DNA of 64,000 bases from Apricaphanius iberus (Eukaryota; Chordata; Actinopteri; Cyprinodontiformes; Aphaniidae): positions 124,001-188,000 of the forward strand of contig JAPXFQ010001710.1 in the NCBI GenBank assembly GCA_028564705.1, written 5' to 3'. The notes under the pieces were generated by a model that saw nothing but the letters and a program-made list of their open reading frames with translations, searched no databases and was not told where the DNA came from. The position numbers were made by a program, and so were the translations under genes. Positions 2,603-48,404 of the stretch are shown piece by piece. Within the stretch, counting starts at the first letter, position 1; each line of letters opens with the position of its first letter.

Positions 2603-3043
2603 CTCTCATATAATAAGATGCATTTAACTTTTTTTCGTTTTTAAACTTCATCCACTCTATAAGTAGGCTATTGTGTTTAAGTTGTATGACGTGTCAGTTT
2701 CGTGGCCGACACAAATATGTCATCCTGCATTATTTCTGCTATATGCGCTGTTCATAATTACGCTTTTATCGACATTGAAGTTTTCAATTTCCTCGTTTCA
2801 CATGTGTCATTCAACAACCAATCACACTGCTGTCCGCTTATTTACTCATACATAGGAAATGACGTTTTCCATAGCAACGGGACATCACTCTTATCTTACG
2901 TTTAGGAATTTGTCCTACGTAAAAGTAGCTCTTAGTGCGTTTGTGAATAGGTTTTGGACGACAACTCCTACGTAAGACCTTTTAGCGCGAGTTAGGAGTA
3001 ACACCTAGCTGTAAGATAAGAGTCTTTGTGAATACGGCCCCAG

Positions 3044-3731
3044 GATAGCAACTCAAATATCACATTTTCTCCTGCAGCCTTTAGGATGTGACATCAGAGC
3101 AGATTCTGTAGAATATAAGGAGATGTATTAGTTAAGTAAGTAATTTATTATTTGTGTGGGTAAAGGTGAAAACAGAAAATGATGACTTTGGATACAAAAA
3201 TTAGCTAATAAAAGACATCCACAAATTCACAATGACTGCATAGTAGCATGAAATAAAAATATGTACAATGCAGACACCACAATTCTTAACCTTTATTAGT
3301 TTCATCACCTTTGTGTTTAATTGAATCTTACACATGGAGCCTGATTTATCAAAATTTCAAATAAAGAGCGCAAAACTGCATGCAACACAAAAAAATTGCG
3401 GTAGTAAGTTGTTCTGTGATCGAGTAAGATTGCGTGTGTAATTCATGAGGCGAAAAGAGCACTATTAAAATTAGGACTCTGTGCCCACTACTGTGCACCA
3501 GCTGCTCTACCCATTGCACTGTGCCACAGCCAATAATGTCCTAGCTAAATGGCTACATTTGTAATGATATTTGGGAAATCTACAATTATACAATAACCAC
3601 ACAATTAAGCATAATTGTTACTTGAGGTTCCATATTTCCTTTAGCAATGCTGGCTGACCAACAGCTAAGTTTAGCTGTTAAAAAGTCAAGTCAAGTTACG
3701 TATCGTTAGAATGAATATATTGTATTCTACT
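3044..3731. other. unassigned
   Basis: AT-rich. Around 3340-3460 'gcctgatttatcaaa' followed by 'gcgcaaaactgcatgcaac' looks like one end of a DNA transposon, but no partner end was found. Confidence 0.4.
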
Positions 3732-8560: not shown

Positions 8561-9552
8561 TCCGTTCCATTGGCTGATGTTGCAAACGGACTAATTGACC
8601 TCGAGTTAAGACTTATGCAATTGTGAGTGTGTGTGAGTGTGAGGGGGAGCTGACAACTACCCCTCCACCAGTTTAGAAATCATATCTGTGCCCCTGATTG
8701 TAAGCATGTTTCTGTTTTTAAAACATTTCCTTGGATGATGTGAAATCTATGAATGGTTTTATACGGTATGAGTTGTAAATTTGTGTTCCTGCTCATAGAG
8801 CAAACATTATTGCAGATGTGAGTCCAGAAATCACATTTGATTTAATTGACCATACAGTATGTAAGGCAACAGTCAGTGGCTTTTGTTATTGTGGAGAAAA
8901 AAAGTGAAATTCATCTGCTTGATGTGTGATAGAATGATGTGGATTCTTCATCTATTTCAGACTGAGTATTCAAATCAATTAAATTTAAATGCTATATAAT
9001 AGCTGACGGGTAAGAATTGGTGATGACATGTGTTTTTGACCCTGTGAGACAAACTGAGCTTTATATATATATATATATATATATATACTCTCAATGTTTA
9101 ACTAGCTGTATTCACTGTCTGTGGCACTATTTTACTGTGTATCAGCTGTTTCTCAGTCATCAAGAGAACATCTGCCTCTGAATATTATTTATACTGAATA
9201 TTAATATACTGATATTGACTTAACTTTTAGGAATATTATGTAAAGTGATGTCAGGTAAACTGGGCCACCTTTTGACAACTGTAGACCAGTCAAATCAATT
9301 ATTGATTTTTTTTTTTTACAACACTCATGCCAACCATTGGAAATCTTTTGTTTGACACTGTCTGTATAAAATTAAAAGGCTAGGAGGATTAAACATTAAG
9401 TGGCTCATTTTATCTGATGGTCCAATTTTCCTGATGTCGCGTAAGTATTTTTATATTTGTCTCATGTTAGCACATACGTAACATTATCTTGTTACCAATC
9501 ATTTTCTGCACCAAAACATACAGCAAGTTAACATTTAGCAAGCCATTACTTT
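8561..9552. other. unassigned, with a TA microsatellite
   Basis: AT-rich. Contains a GTGTGAGT-type simple stretch near 8625-8645 and the TA run at 9063-9087. No coding or RNA feature seen. Confidence 0.5.
9063..9087. repeat. (TA)n microsatellite
   Basis: About 12 uninterrupted TA units. Confidence 0.9.
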
Positions 9553-10745
9553 GGTGCCTACCGGTGGGGACCGTGCCTGGCGCCCAGGCCTCCTGCCGGT
9601 TCCATGAGTTCTGTTGCCTGGTCGTTTCATCTGGGGGGGGCTGTCCGGCATTGGCTGGACCCCTGATCTTGGCACTCTACGTGGGGCGGGATCTGGACCC
9701 GGGAGCTGGTAGATCTGGATGTCCAGGTGCTGGCTGGGCGCGGCCTGGGGAGGGCGTACATCCGCTGTGGCTTTTACTGTGGCTCCCTGGCGTATGGGTG
9801 TGTGTGTGTCGGGGGGTTGTTGGCGGTGGGTATTGGTCCGGGGTGGCGGCGGCGTGTGTTGTCTGTCGGTCGGCTGCAGCGTGTGTTGTCTGTCGGTCGG
9901 CTGCGGATCCCTCCTGCCTGGCGGCGGGGGACCCCTGTCGGTGGGTCCCTGGTCGGGGCCCTGCTGGGGGGCGGCGTGCCCCTGATCCCCTGTGGCCTCC
10001 GGGTCCTGTTCCCGGCGGAGCCCGTGGGCTCGTCCCTGCGATCTCTCGGGGCCCCAGCATTGCGGCTGCTTGGTGTTCCCCTGGCGCTTCCATCTGTTCC
10101 TCTCTTGGTGGGTGATCGGCCCTGCGCTGGTCCGCCTGCGGCTCCTGCGCTCTGTGGGACTCTGGATGCATGCGTCTCCTGCCTCCTTCATGTCTGTGTC
10201 GATTCCTATAGGACGGATTGACGGTTCCTAACACCAGCTATCAATCACTTGCATGGGGAAACCTTATTCAGACCTGCATGCTCCCACACACACATAGGTG
10301 TGGGGACATTGGTGTGGACGGACATATCTTGAGCTGAGGTTATCGTCATTAGTTAGTTGTTAACAGGAGTTGGCAGAAACATTAGTATTGTGTTCATTAA
10401 TCCATGCTTGTGTGTAGTGAATATGTCATTCTTAGTTTATATTATTGGATCTGAACTATTGGTGTGGTTCTGTTCAGTTCATTGTTTTTGTTTGTTATTT
10501 TTTTACCGCTTCTCTGCCATCCGGCAGAGTCGGAGGACTGGGATGCTTTCTTGTGTTCTTTGTTTGCCTCCCTGTCTTGTGTCGTCGGTCCGCGCCTCTG
10601 CCGGTCCTGTTTCTTTTCTTCAATATCTTCCTTTCTTCCTTCTTGTCTCAGTTTCGTGTCCATGACTTCAGGAAATTGAACCAACAGTTCATCTTTTGGG
10701 CTTGTACTTGGTACTCAGACACCAATTCTGAGTAGCAAACTGCTA
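9553..10745. repeat. GC-rich repeat, long copy, with terminal hairpin
   Basis: A GC-rich part (9553-10220), an intermediate part, and a pyrimidine-rich part (10600-10650) end with TACTCAGA-caccaat-TCTGAGTA, an 8-bp stem with a 7-base loop (10712-10734), followed by 'gcaaactgctag'. The same terminus closes the copy at 5262-5905. Long frames on both strands in the GC-rich part (for example 9489-10115 plus and 9535-10191 minus) look compositional: proline/arginine/glycine-rich with no domain. Family not identified; the hairpin near a CTAG end recalls Helitron 3' ends. Confidence 0.65.
9852..9905. repeat. 27-bp tandem duplication
   Basis: Two adjacent 27-bp units (9852-9878 and 9879-9905) containing TTGTCTGTCGGTCGGCTGC, differing at one base. 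Local slippage inside the GC-rich repeat. Confidence 0.9.
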
Positions 10746-41810: not shown

Positions 41811-43946
41811 AATATTTTCTCCAAACTCAATTACCTTATCAGCCACATAAAGAAAATAGATCACAAAAAGGCTGGGTCTTAAAAAGCGTGTTGTTTCAAT
41901 GTCACAGCAACAATTCATATTCATTAGCCTCGACTACCTGGCTTGAGACTGCCCAATGGAACGCTGCAATGTTTGGGCCAGAAGCACAGCAGAGATGAGC
42001 TGCAGCTATGAGAAGCTAAAAATCAGCAACTCTAAAACTATCAAAACACCTTCAGTGTTTGTGGAGATGAGAAATCAACTCTAATTTTTTAACTTTTTTA
42101 TCCACAGAAAAGAAACTGTGATGATGCACGTTACTGCATTATTTGAGCAGCTCAGGGAACCAATCAATGTATAATGTGTATCTGATGTAGGTGGCCCAGA
42201 GGCAAGCTAAGCTGATGACGACAGCAATGTGATGTCGGGAATCATTTAGTAAACATTGAAAGATGGCTACAGATAAATACCAGTTGTTTGAAATGGCTTT
42301 GGCCGCTACAATGAACGAGATAGACTTGGCTTTTCATCTAAACGATGAACAGAAAACCGAGCTCACGTCGTTCCTTTGCAAGAAGGACGTCTTTGCTGTT
42401 TTGCTAGACAAGAGTTTAATCAGTTAGCTCCGCTGGTAGCTCGCTCTGGATATGTCACACCGTGTATTGTTGTGATTGGTCGTGGCGCTATCCAATTGCG
42501 TGCAGTGAGAGTTCCAAATGCTTGCTTGGTTCCGCCCCTCGAGTTAGGCCCTTTTCAGTACATGTTGCCAGACCCTTAATCTTAAACTCTTAAACCCATG
42601 GCTGTTATTTTATTTTTTTTCGAAATTGCCATACCTAAACTCTGGAAGGCTTTTTACAGCTTGTGAAAGGTGTAAAATGTTCGAATTGCTCTCATATAAT
42701 AGGAAGGTCTATGAGGATACTGTGACTGTGAAAATTCTCAAGAAAATCATAGTGGGCATGAGTAACCGAGGTTGAAATGCAGAAAATCTGAAATACGAAT
42801 ATGAATGTCGCCTAAAAAGATACACATTAGCAGCTTGTTTTCATTGTAAAGAAGCAAATAAACATCATAAATAGTAACTACTCACTCTTATGTAATGTTG
42901 GATACTTATCAATTAAAATTGATAAATTTGAGTTATGGTCTATCTGGTTATGTTAAGAATATTAACTAATAATTGGAAACTAGTAGTTTAGTTATTCTTT
43001 AAATCATTTAAATGGAGCACCACCAGCCTCTGGGCTGGAAACAAGATTTTATCTATTCAAAGAAGATTATCAACAAATAATCCCATTTATAATTATTAAT
43101 TTTTACTGATTACCAGAAAGACCTTATCTGAAGGAAGTGAATTCTTGCAGTAATTCACACACACACTCAGAATAAAAGAAATCAGAGATTTGATTCAATT
43201 TAACTAATTTATTCTAAAACACAACTAAAATAAAAACACTACTTATACCAGAGCGGTCCTGTCAAGGCTACGGTATACCTGAGCAATATGGCGACCAGTA
43301 TTGATGTCACTTAGTCGTGTCATGGAGTGCTTCCTGCTGAGGTTCATGCGCAGCCTTTCGCGTGCACGCGTAGAGGCGGCGTACGGACGTGAACGCGCAG
43401 CTTGCCAAAAGGGGGGAGAAGTAATTGCTTTATTGCAGGCAAGGTCCTTAAAAATGGGCAACTTTGTTAGCAAAGTCTCTGGTCCAGAGAGACAGGACAA
43501 TTAAGTATTTTGCAAGTTTACTCTCAGCACTGCGCATGTCTTGGAAACACTCCGTGTATGCGCAACAGAACGCTGTTTACGTCGTTAAACACTCACTACG
43601 GTACATGAAAACCAAAGGGATTTCCTACATTCGGATAACTCTGCTTATTACTAAAGGGCAAAATATACTACAGAAATAAAACTTACACAACAATTAAGCT
43701 CACAGTTTACCCGTTAATACGAACAAAGCACAGCACAGAAACTTCAAGTGCGCTGATTAGAAATGAGAACATGCATGCATCAAAATACAGGATTCCTGAA
43801 TAACTCCACCCAGGTCAAGACATAAAATTGAACAGTCTTACTTCATAGAAGTCCCAGATGCAGGAGAAAGGCACCGCGTCCTTGATTGCAACGGAAAAAC
43901 AAGAGAGAAAAAAGAAAGGAAAGTAGTTTATAAATGCAGAACAGAA
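41811..43946. other. unassigned apart from a helicase-like relic
   Basis: Contains the relic at 42263-42579 and a 34-bp sequence (42858-42891) repeated at 48352-48385. 43243-43510 is GC-richer with overlapping frames lacking domains. The LINE begins at about 43947. Confidence 0.4.
42263..42579 (+). pseudogene. RecQ/DEAD-type helicase N-terminal relic
   Basis: From the ATG at 42263 the frame reads MATDKYQLFEMALAATMNEI, then LNDEQKTELTSFLCKKDVFA and VLLDKSLIS-stop (42425-42427). In another frame QLAPLVARSGYVTPCIVVI follows. This is the pattern of RecQ-like helicases: a Q-motif-like segment, then 'KDVFAVLPTGxGKSL.(Y/F)QLAPL', but the Walker A core is lost by a small deletion. Repeat-borne helicase-like genes of this sort occur in fish genomes; here I cannot assign an element. 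Dead. Confidence 0.5.
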
Positions 43947-46049
43947 AACAGTGATTTAACTCGTGACCCCTCACAACTTGACATTTTAGTTCATAGCGTT
44001 AATTCCTCCCTGCGTCGGGCAATAGACAAAGTTGCCCCCTTGAAAAGGAAGGTGGCTAGCCATAGAAGATTAACTCCCTGGTTTAATTTAGAGCTACGTA
44101 CCCTAAAGCAGAATGTTAGAAAACTAGAGAGAAAATGGCGCTCCACGCATTTACATGATTCCTTTTTAATATGGAAAAATAGTTTATTGCTATATAAAAA
44201 GAGCCTTCACACAGCTAGAACAGCATATTATTCATCTTTAATCGAGGAGAATAAAAATAATCCTAGGTTTCTTTTTAATACAGTTGCCAAACTCACACAG
44301 GATCATAGCTCTATCGAGCCAACCATTCCCCAAGCTCTAAGCAGTGACGACTTCATGCAATTCTTTATAAATAAAATAGACTCCATAAAGAATAAGATAA
44401 TTGGGAACCTTCCCAATATGCTTGCTTCCTCCTTAGTTAATGAGGCAGCCTCAAAAATGGTGGAACCTAATATATGCTTAAACTGCTTTAATGCAGCCGA
44501 ACTTTGTGATGTACTAAAATTATTAGCTTCATCTAAACCTTCAACTTGCGTTTTAGACCCAATCCCAACTAAACTCTTAAAAGAAGTTTTCCCTCTGATC
44601 GCTGCTCCAATTTTAAATATAATGAATCTATCCTTAGTCAATGGATATGTACCACAGGAGTTTAAGATTGCTGTAATTAAACCTCTACTTAAGAAACCCT
44701 CTCTTGATCAAAACGACTTAATTAACTATAGACCGATATCTAATCTTCCCTTCTTATCTAAAATTCTTGAGAAAATAGTTGCACACCAGATATGTGAGCA
44801 TTTAAACAATAATGAGCTGTTTGAGAAGTTTCAGTCAGGCTTTAGAGCTCATCATAGCACTGAAACAGCTCTGGTGAAGGTTACTAATGATATTCTCATA
44901 GCCTCAGACAATGGACTGGTGACCATTCTGGTCCTGTTAGATCTCAGTGCTGCCTTTGACACTGTTGACCACAATATTCTCATAGAAAGGCTTCAAAGTG
45001 TCGGTATAATAGGAACAGCACTAGGTTGGTTTAAATCTTATTTGTCTAACAGATTTCAGTTTGTTCAGGTAAACAATAGATCTTCCTCAACCTCAATAGT
45101 TACTTGCGGAGTACCACAGGGTTCAGTGCTTGGGCCGATTCTCTTTACTATATATATGCTTCCTATTGGTAAAATAATTAGGCAGCATGGGATAAAATTC
45201 CATAGTTACGCAGATGATACACAGCTATATCTATCCATAAATCCTGATGAATCCAATCAGTTAGGTAGACTACAGGCATGTCTGGAAGACATAAAAACTT
45301 GGATGACTCTAAACTTCTTGCTTCTAAATTCTGATAAAACAGAAGTTGTCGTCTTTGGACCAGAAGCTCTGAAAAAGAAACTACTTAGTCAGCCCCTTCA
45401 CCTGGACGGCATTAAATTAGCCTCCAGTAATAAAGCAAAAAACCTCGGTGTCATTTTTGACCAAGATATGTCATTTAGAACTTACATTAAAGAAGTCTGT
45501 AGGATTTCCTTTTTTCACCTTAGGAATATTGCAAAAATTAGAACCATCCTGTCCAGGAATGATGCTGAAAAACTAGTCCATGCCTTTGTTACTTCAAGGC
45601 TGGATTACTGTAACTGTCTATTATCAGGTAGTCCACAGAATACAATTAAAAGTCTTCAGTTAGTTCAAAATGCTGCTGCTAGGATTCTGATGAATATTAA
45701 AAGAAGAGATCACATTTCCCCTGTTTTAGCTTCTCTTCACTGGCTCCCAGTAAAATCTAGAATAGAATTCAAGATCCTCCTTCTGACATATAAAGCCCTT
45801 AATAATCTAGCTCCATCATACATAAGAGACCTGATTGTTCCATATGTTCCTAACAGAGACCTTCGCTCTCAGACTGCAGGTTTACTGGTAGTTCCTAGGA
45901 TTTCTAAAAGTAGAATGGGTGGCAGATCTTTCAGCTATCAGGCTCCCCTCCTATGGAACCGGCTCCCAGGGTTGGTTCGTGAAGCAGACAATTTGTCTAT
46001 CTTTAAAACTAGGCTAAAAACTTTCCTCTTTGACAAAGCTTACAGTTAG
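43947..46049 (+). CDS. L2-type LINE ORF2, 5'-truncated but open
   Basis: The last ~700 codons of a LINE ORF2, with no stop from 43947 to 46049. Homology starts at NSDLTRDPSQLDILV; the endonuclease is missing, as in a typical 5'-truncated insertion, so no genuine start exists (numbering below is from codon 44040). Reverse transcriptase spans about residues 200-480: NYRPISNLPFLSKILEKI (229-246), GFRAHHSTETALVKV (267-281), motif A LLDLSAAFDTVDH with D301, GVPQGSVLGP (357-366), catalytic YADD at 390-393, and the thumb (SDKTEVVVFG, 431-440). The C-terminal domain ends with LLWNRLPGLVREAD. It belongs to a different subfamily from the neighbours at 39-42 and 48-50 kb. Its freedom from stops suggests a fairly recent insertion. 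Confidence 0.9.
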   Translation, partial: NSDLTRDPSQLDILVHSVNSSLRRAIDKVAPLKRKVASHRRLTPWFNLELRTLKQNVRKLERKWRSTHLHDSFLIWKNSLLLYKKSLHTARTAYYSSLIEENKNNPRFLFNTVAKLTQDHSSIEPTIPQALSSDDFMQFFINKIDSIKNKIIGNLPNMLASSLVNEAASKMVEPNICLNCFNAAELCDVLKLLASSKPSTCVLDPIPTKLLKEVFPLIAAPILNIMNLSLVNGYVPQEFKIAVIKPLLKKPSLDQNDLINYRPISNLPFLSKILEKIVAHQICEHLNNNELFEKFQSGFRAHHSTETALVKVTNDILIASDNGLVTILVLLDLSAAFDTVDHNILIERLQSVGIIGTALGWFKSYLSNRFQFVQVNNRSSSTSIVTCGVPQGSVLGPILFTIYMLPIGKIIRQHGIKFHSYADDTQLYLSINPDESNQLGRLQACLEDIKTWMTLNFLLLNSDKTEVVVFGPEALKKKLLSQPLHLDGIKLASSNKAKNLGVIFDQDMSFRTYIKEVCRISFFHLRNIAKIRTILSRNDAEKLVHAFVTSRLDYCNCLLSGSPQNTIKSLQLVQNAAARILMNIKRRDHISPVLASLHWLPVKSRIEFKILLLTYKALNNLAPSYIRDLIVPYVPNRDLRSQTAGLLVVPRISKSRMGGRSFSYQAPLLWNRLPGLVREADNLSIFKTRLKTFLFDKAYS

Positions 46050-47170
46050 AGATATGTTTATAGGTAGTTAGAGTCAGGTCAGACAGGTAGATAGGAAGAG
46101 ACAGGTTAATGTTAGTAGTCAGGCAGAGTGTCAAAAGTTAGGAAGAGATAGGAAGAGGTAGAGTAGCTAGGTAGAGATAGATTAATGTAAGCCAGGTAAA
46201 GATCCGGAGCCGGTCGCGGCTTACCGCCGCGGAAGAAATGCGCCCCACAGGGGCCAGCCAGCGCCGGAGAGAGGTCCCTCAAGGGGATCCTCCCGCACAG
46301 TGCGGCCGCCCATTACCTGCCGGGTTGAATCCCCCGGGCAGACTGTGCGGACCCCACCCGTTTATCTCTTAAACGTTTCTCGCCCTCTTCAACTCTGTCC
46401 TCTCAGTTCTGTCTATTTTTCCTTAAGATAGTTGTCGACTATCGGTCTCGTGCCGGTATTTAGCCTTAGATGGAGTTTACCACCCACTTTGGGCTGCATT
46501 CTCAAACAACCCGACTCCGAGAAGACCCCGGCATGACGGGGGCCGTTACCGGCCCTACACCGTCCACGGGTCAGGAGGACTCAGACAGAGTGTTGGTAGC
46601 CAGGTCTCCTAGTAGCTAGGAGACAGGTTAATGTTAGTAGCTATGCTGCTTTAGGCTAGGCTGTTGGAGGACATTATTAGGGTCTGTTCCTACTTTCTCT
46701 CCTACTTCTCCCCAACTGCATGATGTGCTGTCAATTCAAGCACTAACCTGTTTTCTATTATAGTAGGTGCTCCGGATTAGCCCTGCTTGACGACCCTGAC
46801 TAAGATGGCATTGCAGTGACGGAAAATTCTCCACGTCCTGCAACAAACTTGTGCATCAGTTCTATTGCTCTTTCTGTGTCTCTGTTATGTATTCTCCAAG
46901 CCACAGACGGTCGCGGCAGATAACCGCTTGTGCTGAGCCTGGTTCTGCCGGAGGTTTCTTCCTGTTAAAAGGGAGTTTTTCCTTCCCACTGTCGCTGCAT
47001 GCTTGCTCAGTATGAGGGATTGCTGAGAATTCCACGACGCAATCTTCTGTGGTTCTGTAATTTCTACACTAAACATTGTATTGTAATAACTCTTTTTGTA
47101 AAGTGCCTTGAGATGACATCTGTTGTGAAATGGCGCTATATAAATAAACTGAATTGAATTTAAATTGAAT
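46050..47170 (+). mobile_element. 3' untranslated region of the L2-type LINE
   Basis: 46050-46200 and 46586-46700 are purine-rich, loosely repeated 'aggtagagatag/acaggttaatgttagtag' sequence. 46201-46585 is 28S rDNA in antisense. From 46860 comes the conserved tail: 'gtcgcggcagataaccgctt', 'ggttctgccggaggtttctt', 'gtcgctgcatgcttgctc', 'aagtgccttgagatgacatc' and an 'aaactgaattgaatt' terminus. Worn copies of this tail lie at 11938-12075, 13190-13725 and 14370-14745, but without rDNA. Confidence 0.8.
46201..46585 (-). rRNA. 28S rRNA fragment (antisense, pseudogene)
   Basis: Read on the minus strand, the segment follows the 5' part of vertebrate 28S rRNA (end of D1, the conserved stem region and much of D2). 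Diagnostic runs are CCCGTGGACGGTGT, GAATGCAGCCCAAAG, GTGGTAAACTCCATCTAAGG, CTAAATACCGGCACGAGACC, GATAAACGGGTGGGGTCCGC and CGCGACCGGCTCCGG. It has scattered substitutions (a poor match in the stretch around 46395-46435), so it is not a working rDNA unit. It lies within the 3' region of a plus-strand LINE, with no 18S, 5.8S or spacer around it. 'agccaggt' occurs on both sides (46190-46197 and 46598-46605). Confidence 0.93.
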
Positions 47171-48404
47171 TGAATCTGCCGTGTGAAAGGGGGAAAAAAG
47201 TTGAATGAACAAAGAGATCAAACTTTGAAGGCCAGCCTCAAACACAAGAGAAGTTGTTTGTGCAAGGGAAAGGGGTCAGAACACGTGTTGAGAATGTAGT
47301 CTCTTCTTTGTAGTTTTGGGACAAAAACCACCGCTCATATGGATGAAAGCGTGAAGAGGAAGGACAATGGTTTTCAGCACTTTTTTTCTTGGTGCGGGCG
47401 CTTTGCCCCCCTTTCCCCCTATCTGTCTCCAATCAGGCTGCGGGCAGCGGCAGTGGTTTTGAGGGATTGGCATTCCAGCCAATCAGTGCCACAGATCCTC
47501 CAGCGCTCAGCTGGTTTCCGACGGGAGACAAGCGGATAGTTCTCCAATTGGTTAGCCTGGAGCGACCGAGAGGGAGGGGTCGTATTGCCGAGTTATGGAA
47601 TGCTGGGTCATGTTGTAGAGCTCCTTCAATATCATATTCATGGTTCAGACCCAACAGTAATAACATATAATTGAAAGTTGAAAGTCAAAGGTTTCTCTAC
47701 TGTGCTCCAAGAATGTTAAAGATAAACGTACCCAAGGTCAGTGCCTATACCCAGCCGTCAGATAAGGTGCCAGATGGTGCCTCCAGCTTCAAACAGCCTC
47801 TGAGAGTCTAAAAGCAAAGTTCGCCGAAGGTCAGCGCCTCAGCTCAGCGCCTCAGCTCAGCGCCTCAGCTCAGCATGTTGATAACAATAGACCATTAGAT
47901 GGGATATCCAGCCTCTCACAATCCTCTGACAATGACAACGATGACTCAGCAAAACACAGCTCACCGATAGAATTTTGCAAAGAAATTACAGGAACAAATT
48001 ATTATTGGAACTCAGCTAACTCCAAGATTCTCACTCAGGTCAATTGAACATGATGACTCTCCCCTCCCACCACTGGTAGTGACTGATGTTTGATGTTTCA
48101 GGTTGCCAGACATAACTCCAAGAAAACTCTTAAACCAGCACATCTGGTTACTGAGAAAATAGCATTCCTGTGATAATAAGCGGAAGAATTTACTAAAGAA
48201 AATCCCCCCGCATCATGCCAAATCTCATAAATATCACCTGTCAGAATAATTTAAAAACTACCAACAAATCTCTTAAATTGGCATTACTCAATTTCTGATC
48301 CCTATCAAATAAATATTTCCTAATCAATGACTTTATCACTAATCATAATTTATAAACATCATAAATAGTAACAACTCACTCTTATTGTCTTTAGACCAAC
48401 TATT
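47171..48404. other. unassigned, GC-richer at 47380-47620
   Basis: Overlapping frames on both strands at 47238-47670 are short and without domain. 47832-47870 is a tandem repeat. 48352-48385 is the second copy of the 34-bp sequence at 42858. Confidence 0.4.
47832..47870. repeat. 13-bp tandem repeat x 3
   Basis: Three identical units of CAGCGCCTCAGCT. Confidence 0.95.

Follow-up and report, generated by a model that had tools for sequence, protein, structure and literature searches.

The 3' untranslated region (3'UTR) of a LINE copy in the fish Apricaphanius iberus contains a piece of 28S rDNA in the opposite orientation. This raises the question of how a host ribosomal fragment came to lie inside a retrotransposon, whether the joint is peculiar to one locus, and whether the LINE spreads the fragment. 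The window, i.e. the whole 64,000-bp stretch of DNA that was analysed (C1027:124001-188000), belongs to a genome of 1.195 Gb in 1,979 contigs, which was searched for further copies. A young LINE subfamily is spreading one antisense piece of host 28S, found at about 2,400 places. The reading preferred here, a single 28S capture followed by amplification as a passenger, is given a probability of roughly 0.82.

28S fragment and its position in the LINE

The original prediction placed about 385 bases of antisense 28S (D1-D2) in the 3' region of a plus-strand LINE, and this is confirmed by the Rfam model as well as by alignment to the host's own 28S. The minus-strand match to Rfam LSU_rRNA_eukarya scored 92.4 bits in a scan of the whole window and 107.4 bits (E 7.9e-27, minus strand) on 46180-46620; the insert covers model positions 143-536 of 3401. 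Alignment to L090, a 28S copy of the same genome, gave the limits and strand listed in Table 1, with 324 identical positions, 37 substitutions and 35 gap columns (90% identity plus indels). On the left, positions 46032-46198 (167 bp aligned) are identical in L098, a LINE copy without the insert. The two extra nucleotides at the left junction, which can alternatively be counted as one changed base plus one extra, are also present in the older copies L093 and L094. The last two bases on the right are probably the final 2 bp of the captured fragment.

Table 1. Features of the LINE copy and its 28S insert (positions in the window)
Feature	Position	Strand	Basis or remark
LINE copy, 5'-truncated	43925..~47170	+	megablast of the window against 20 loci
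ORF2 part in the window copy	43925..46049	+	open to TAG at 46047-46049
3'UTR left of the insert, purine-rich, ending ...TTAATGTAAGCCAGGTA	46050..46198	+	alignment to insertless L098
21-bp repeat, left copy	46098..46118	+	present in insertless copies too
8-bp AGCCAGGT, left	46190..46197	+	no difference between the filled and empty copies compared
2 extra nt AA at the left junction	46199..46200	+	comparison with the empty site GGTAGAGAGTGTT
28S rDNA fragment, D1 to part of D2, 384 bp	46201..46584	-	Rfam and alignment to own 28S L090
Last 2 bases	46585..46586	-	AC in the window; GC in L093 and L094, there matching 28S
3'UTR right of the insert and L2-like tail	46587..47140	+	40 copies aligned; L024 and L033 partly different
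8-bp AGCCAGGT, right	46598..46605	+	reads AGCTAGGT in L093 as well as in 6 of the 8 insertless copies
21-bp repeat, right copy	46620..46640	+	present in insertless copies too

The LINE family

Homology between the window and 20 other loci (megablast) never starts before 43925 and ends at 47158-47175, and the LINE copy terminates in (TTGAA)n. The reverse transcriptase frame is open over 43800-46046. Full-length copies of about 5.4 kb exist at other loci, and the common 5' start is reached by 9 of the 20 loci (with L010 and L021 being one locus counted twice), some of them having internal gaps. Full-length copies begin with short tandem units of the GACGTATCGCGTTGGTAA type (L011, for example, from oriented position ~3518 onwards), two in most of the copies displayed and three in L027.

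The protein-coding capacity was read from four copies. ORF1 of L011 matches a GDSL esterase in Pfam (Lipase_GDSL_2, 40.9 bits against a cut-off of 32.9), and its ORF2 of 1,038 aa, counted stop to stop, combines an APE-type endonuclease (Exo_endo_phos, 8.1e-11) with a reverse transcriptase (RVT_1, 3.5e-39). An open 304-aa ORF1 frame together with an open ORF2 frame is found in both L011 and L026; in the other two copies whose frames were listed, ORF2 (L027) or ORF1 (L009) is broken. Because L011 has both the esterase ORF1 and the endonuclease-reverse transcriptase ORF2, the family is probably autonomous. Many LINEs of the L2/CR1 group possess an ORF1 with an esterase (SGNH/GDSL), and LINEs of this group end in a short simple repeat and not in poly(A). 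By its domains and tail, the present LINE looks like a member of the L2/CR1 group, and an L2-like one. The proteins closest to ORF2 are reverse transcriptases, whose best matches reach 68% across 93% of the query and 70% across 72%. Among the best 120 proteins listed, those named to species come from ray-finned fish, but for one bacterial MAG record, which is probably contamination.

The loci displayed have TTGAA-type 3' ends followed by flanks that differ between loci. Among 35 three-prime flanks of at least 15 nt, two pairs had a common 12-mer, L010/L021 and L023/L032; L024, L033 and L048 gave no tail for this comparison, and L036 and L042 gave too little flank. L010 and L021 represent one locus found on two contigs, and their sequences differ at 1 of 9,951 bases. 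As for a target-site duplication of the whole LINE, a 7-8-bp candidate was seen in 5 of the 19 copies tested and none in the rest, the boundaries used being rough. A second, inverted LINE copy lies nearby in some loci, about 0.15 kb off in L010/L021 and about 2 kb off in L028. In L027, open frames flank the LINE copy on either side (oriented 3008-3640 and 8904-9950), and since the downstream one resembles another reverse transcriptase by eye, this copy may be nested in another element.

Number of copies and constancy of the junctions

The left junction has 2,391 matches in the 1.195-Gb genome at up to 3 mismatches, and its reversed control has 0. The right joint lies at one and the same place in 60 of 60 left-junction copies sampled: 53 have the exact 13-mer across the joint, and 7, with changes close by, were read individually. 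TAGCCAGGTCTCCTAG, a word inside the right flank that does not span the joint, is present in 59 of the 60. The sample was taken from the first 100 listed exact left junctions, on the low-numbered contigs C1 to C98. Every sampled copy thus carries both junctions, which means that the window does not hold a one-off insertion, and the idea of a LINE that spreads a piece of rDNA is borne out by the number of left junctions and the uniform right joint.

When 46050-46700 was searched against the same genome, 40 of 40 scored matches were identical over 651 bp, an identity produced by selection, since these are the best 40 of 648 candidates; 20 of these 40 places were fetched with their flanks. The copy counts may include haplotype duplicates, because L010 and L021 proved to be one locus present twice. 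An assembly error is an unlikely source of the junctions, given 2,391 matches of which those listed are spread over many contigs. The left junction was not found in viral_contigs, and the 28S probe had no match in viral_contigs or genome_contigs.

Empty site and flanking repeats

Copies without the insert are abundant as well. The insertless junction 31-mer has 2,798 matches in the genome (up to 3 mismatches; control 0), and a gapped pattern from the ORF2 end to the tail at insertless spacing finds 710 copies (control 0). Eight insertless copies, L098-L104 among them, were read. Their empty site is AAGCCAGGTA-G-AGAGTGTT, and the filled site is AAGCCAGGTA-AA-(28S)-AGAGTGTT, where the last two 28S bases are GC in L093/L094 and AC in the window. 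Insertion accordingly produced a target-site duplication of at most 1-2 bp, removed or altered about one base, and added 2 nucleotides on the left side. The comparison with the empty site revealed no A-run at the 28S 3' end. A processed 28S pseudogene made by TPRT would have a 3' tail and a target-site duplication; here there is no tail, and no duplication beyond 1-2 bp.

The paired 21-mer and 8-mer on the two sides of the insert, pointed out in the original prediction, do exist, but they are not marks of the insertion. The 21-bp repeat also occurs twice in insertless copies, exactly in 7 of the 8 read, while in L103 its left copy has a single mismatch; it is therefore a part of the LINE 3'UTR older than the insert. 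The right-hand 8-mer is AGCTAGGT in L093, L098, L099 and L101-L104, with L100 and L094 one further base off, so that the perfect match in the window arose later and is no target-site duplication. The empty copies thus rule out the reading of AGCCAGGT and the 21-bp repeat as a target-site duplication. A duplication of ~70-80 bp of the 3'UTR around the insert was rejected too, as empty copies already contain both sides. The three tails at 11.9-14.7 kb of the window, cited earlier as lacking the insert, do not serve as controls: they are diverged, L2-like and alignable only from ~46854 onwards, do not span the insertion site, and are therefore uninformative on its absence.

Older copies and source of the fragment

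The 28S core probe gave 12 matches in the genome, 11 of which were read in part (10 loci and L076), the remaining one being C743:71093. By eye, L089, L090, L091, L092, L095, L105 and L106 are own 28S-type or rearranged 28S sequences, and L076, L093, L094 and L096 are LINE copies. In the older copies L093 and L094, both junction positions are as in the window and the insert is closer to the host's own 28S; no other old copies with the insert were found, and the left flank of L094 is truncated. Over the fragment, identity to L090 is 94% in L093, 91% in L094 and 90% in the window, and the longest exact run shared with L090 measures 154 nt for L093, against 70 nt for the window. With the L093 insert as query, the 40 scored of 711 candidates were L093, the rDNA copy L105 and 38 matches at 92-93%; within this set, further copies like L093 are rare or absent.

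The word CCTTAAGG is common to the insert and to own 28S in L089, L090, L105 and L106, and the Rfam consensus reads ccGUGAgg there; together with the 154-nt exact run of L093, this points to the 28S of the host lineage itself as the source of the fragment. At this site, CTTAAGG is found in the window and CCATAAGG in L092.

28S occurs in this genome in two forms or more: L105 (C858) possesses a stretch of 28 columns in D1 that is missing from L090, L089, L092 and L106, and L105 differs from L090 at 36 of 450 aligned sites. The insert has the 28 D1 columns that the 28S-like L089, L090, L092 and L106 lack. Dating the capture by a D1 deletion in host 28S was dropped, as L105 (C858) has the long form. 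In L089 and L092, 28S begins in D1 and is preceded by non-28S sequence, and these two are for that reason probably rearranged or pseudogene copies.

Eight diagnostic flank sites place the insert on two LINE backgrounds, a young one (the window) and an older one (L093 and, in part, L094). The insertless L098 and L099 are window-like at 6 of 6 left sites, yet have the old right flank and an intact empty site, which simple deletion from a filled copy would not restore. LINE lineages have therefore probably exchanged the 3' end that bears the insert, a reading based on few copies.

Route of capture

The presence of both junction positions on older flanks in L093 and L094 argues for a single capture. 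A founder LINE would have received one antisense piece of host 28S in its 3'UTR through reverse transcription of a 28S rRNA fragment into a LINE copy already in place, primed from the LINE plus strand at ...AGCCAGGTA; the captured fragment would have been joined with about one target base lost. Ordinary retrotransposition would then have copied the insert to about 2,400 places, the fragment being tolerated as a passenger, and recombination would have passed the insert-bearing 3' end between LINE lineages.

Reverse transcription into a LINE copy, primed at that point, is allotted about half of the weight among the routes of capture, and most of the other half falls to DNA-level filling and a second-strand template jump together. 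Judging from the junctions, reverse transcription with a short truncation and DNA filler both appear to fit, and a second-strand jump is possible. Short target-site truncations and extra nucleotides occur among ZfL2-2 insertions in cultured cells, according to the accessible part of PMC2666801; the same part gives a duplication in 20 of 25 wild-type insertions, which counts against the reverse-transcription route. So does the insert itself, which has neither a target-site duplication nor an A-tail; DNA-level filling leaves like marks.

Filling at the DNA level would mean that a double-strand break in a LINE copy was closed by end joining with rDNA or rRNA cDNA, this copy later becoming a master element. 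The duplication of at most 1-2 bp, the loss of about one base and the extra nucleotides on one side all agree with it, and either orientation is allowed. Nothing specific speaks against this somewhat doubtful alternative, although it needs an rDNA fragment at the break, and the LINE machinery itself makes breaks and cDNA.

A jump during second-strand synthesis, in which the enzyme copying the first cDNA strand moves to 28S rRNA and then back, would account for both the antisense 28S in the LINE plus strand and the short extra nucleotides. Template jumps have been proposed for the 5' joining of ZfL2-2 (PMC2666801, in its accessible part). The enzyme would have had to return to within ~1 nt of the point it left, and this route is considered unlikely.

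Probable passenger status and possible function

Comparison of the window with L093 finds differences at 26 of 375 insert sites, 8 of 149 left-flank sites and 3 of 87 right-flank sites. In the 60 young copies, 103 substitutions in 23,640 sites and 42 indels, of which 26 are distinct, fall in the insert; the left flank has 25 substitutions in 7,960 sites and 9 indels, and the right flank 14 in 7,888 sites and 5 indels. These figures leave out L072, L086 and L087 (left flank), L033 (right flank) and any substitution no more than 20 bp from a deletion of over 5 bp. Thirteen of the 42 insert indels concern an ancestral stretch of 11 or 10 bp that native 28S shares. Deletions of ~96, 110 and 128 bp occur within the insert, as do insertions of 7 to 25 bp, which by eye are duplications. 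L097 has lost the insert almost wholly, apparently at an AGA repeat, and retains the right flank of the young family. Since it accumulates changes no more slowly than the flanks, the insert looks like an unselected passenger. Young copies are ~0.2-0.4% from the majority, and the LINE family looks young.

Of the 17 changes private to the young lineage, 12 fall within 67 nt of the conserved 28S core (window 46372-46432; P 5e-5 by permutation), and 9 of these 12 are transversions. Neutral drift does not explain this clustering, which counts against the preferred reading. Quasi-palindrome conversion as its cause was unsupported (with minimum stem lengths of 5, 6 and 7, P was 0.53, 0.21 and 1.0). 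As for RNA structure, a single-sequence fold has a z of -2.1, a value that GC-rich 28S might reach anyway.

The opposite view is that antisense 28S has been kept for a function, e.g. pairing of LINE RNA with 28S rRNA. The window copy offers 70 nt and L093 154 nt of perfect complement to own 28S, and insert-bearing copies are numerous, many of them identical. The insert nevertheless changes at least as quickly as the flanks, the changes hit the 28S core, large deletions and one near-complete loss are seen, and insertless copies are equally numerous (2,798 matches), all of which makes a function very improbable. It is just as improbable that the segment aids the LINE by tethering its RNA to ribosomes, their precursors or the nucleolus; tethering, if true, would explain the numerous and homogeneous insert-bearing branch.

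Origins that fit poorly

Capture with later amplification was also compared with the origins put forward in the original prediction, which fared worse. Simple first-strand template switching from LINE RNA to rRNA and back to LINE RNA would give sense 28S in the plus strand; the insert is antisense, and this origin is therefore scarcely credible, even though the accessible text of PMC13174262 ascribes 28S/LINE-1 chimeras, which are mostly sense, to RNA ligation or template switching. A 28S-derived SINE that inserted into the LINE is equally hard to credit. Such SINEs are known, e.g. SINE28, which derives from the 3' end of 28S (PMC8010984, in the part available); the present insert comes from D1-D2 and has no tail or duplication, and the 11 of 12 core-probe matches that were read include no free SINE, the probe being of the 28S type and not of the diverged young type. 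Insertion targeted to rDNA with subsequent capture finds no backing, as the copies are scattered over different places, none of 20 three-prime flanks has a 16-mer in common with the 28S pieces compared (a part of 28S), and no R2-like fixed 28S insertion site was seen among the 35 LINE 3' flanks of at least 15 nt.

Comparison with known systems

R2 elements insert into 28S genes. They resemble the present case in bringing a LINE and 28S into one context; here, in contrast, the 28S piece lies within a dispersed LINE. In SINE28, as described in the accessible part of PMC8010984, a 28S-derived sequence is likewise spread by LINE machinery. SINE28 is non-autonomous and comes from the 3' end of 28S, whereas the insert studied here covers D1-D2 (model positions 143-536 of 3401, far from a 3'-end origin) and is carried inside a LINE with its own enzymes.

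The 28S/LINE-1 chimeras form 18 single loci, 83% of them sense; the foreign RNA is joined to the 5' end of the LINE, and the 28S pieces have a median of 269 nt (50-482), as given in the accessible text of PMC13174262. They share with the present element a 28S piece of a few hundred nucleotides fused to a LINE. Unlike in those chimeras, the fragment is internal to the 3'UTR, antisense and present in about 2,400 copies. It lies between two halves of the 3'UTR and not at the LINE 5' end as the product of one insertion. Many published LINE/ncRNA chimeras, though not all, are surrounded by a target-site duplication; around the 28S piece it amounts to at most 1-2 bp. ZfL2-2, by its name a zebrafish L2-type LINE, is similar in its truncations, extra nucleotides and microhomologies and differs in having one ORF (PMC2666801, accessible part), the present LINE adding an esterase ORF1 and carrying 28S. 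Among the open-licence PMC papers searched, by title and opening lines of the abstract, there was no LINE family whose 3'UTR has a fixed 28S piece.

In such species, 28S D1-D2 probes and repeat libraries can catch a dispersed LINE. Filled and insertless sister copies offer a natural comparison of how foreign RNA in a LINE 3'UTR bears on retrotransposition. The nearest parallel among fish is Coregonus, where multiplied rDNA includes the 5' part of 28S and spread by retrotransposons was proposed; the evidence in the accessible part of PMC3585787 is FISH, with Rex1 co-localising on one or few chromosomes, and no joined sequence is described there. Both cases concern a fish, the 5' part of 28S and spread by a retrotransposon. 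The present one differs in that the joined sequence is read and consists of 28S only (384 bp), with no ITS. The spread of fish rDNA by retrotransposons, argued in Coregonus from co-localisation under the microscope, is now read at the sequence level, and with the joined molecule, the empty site, the older copies and the copy numbers at hand the idea becomes directly testable.
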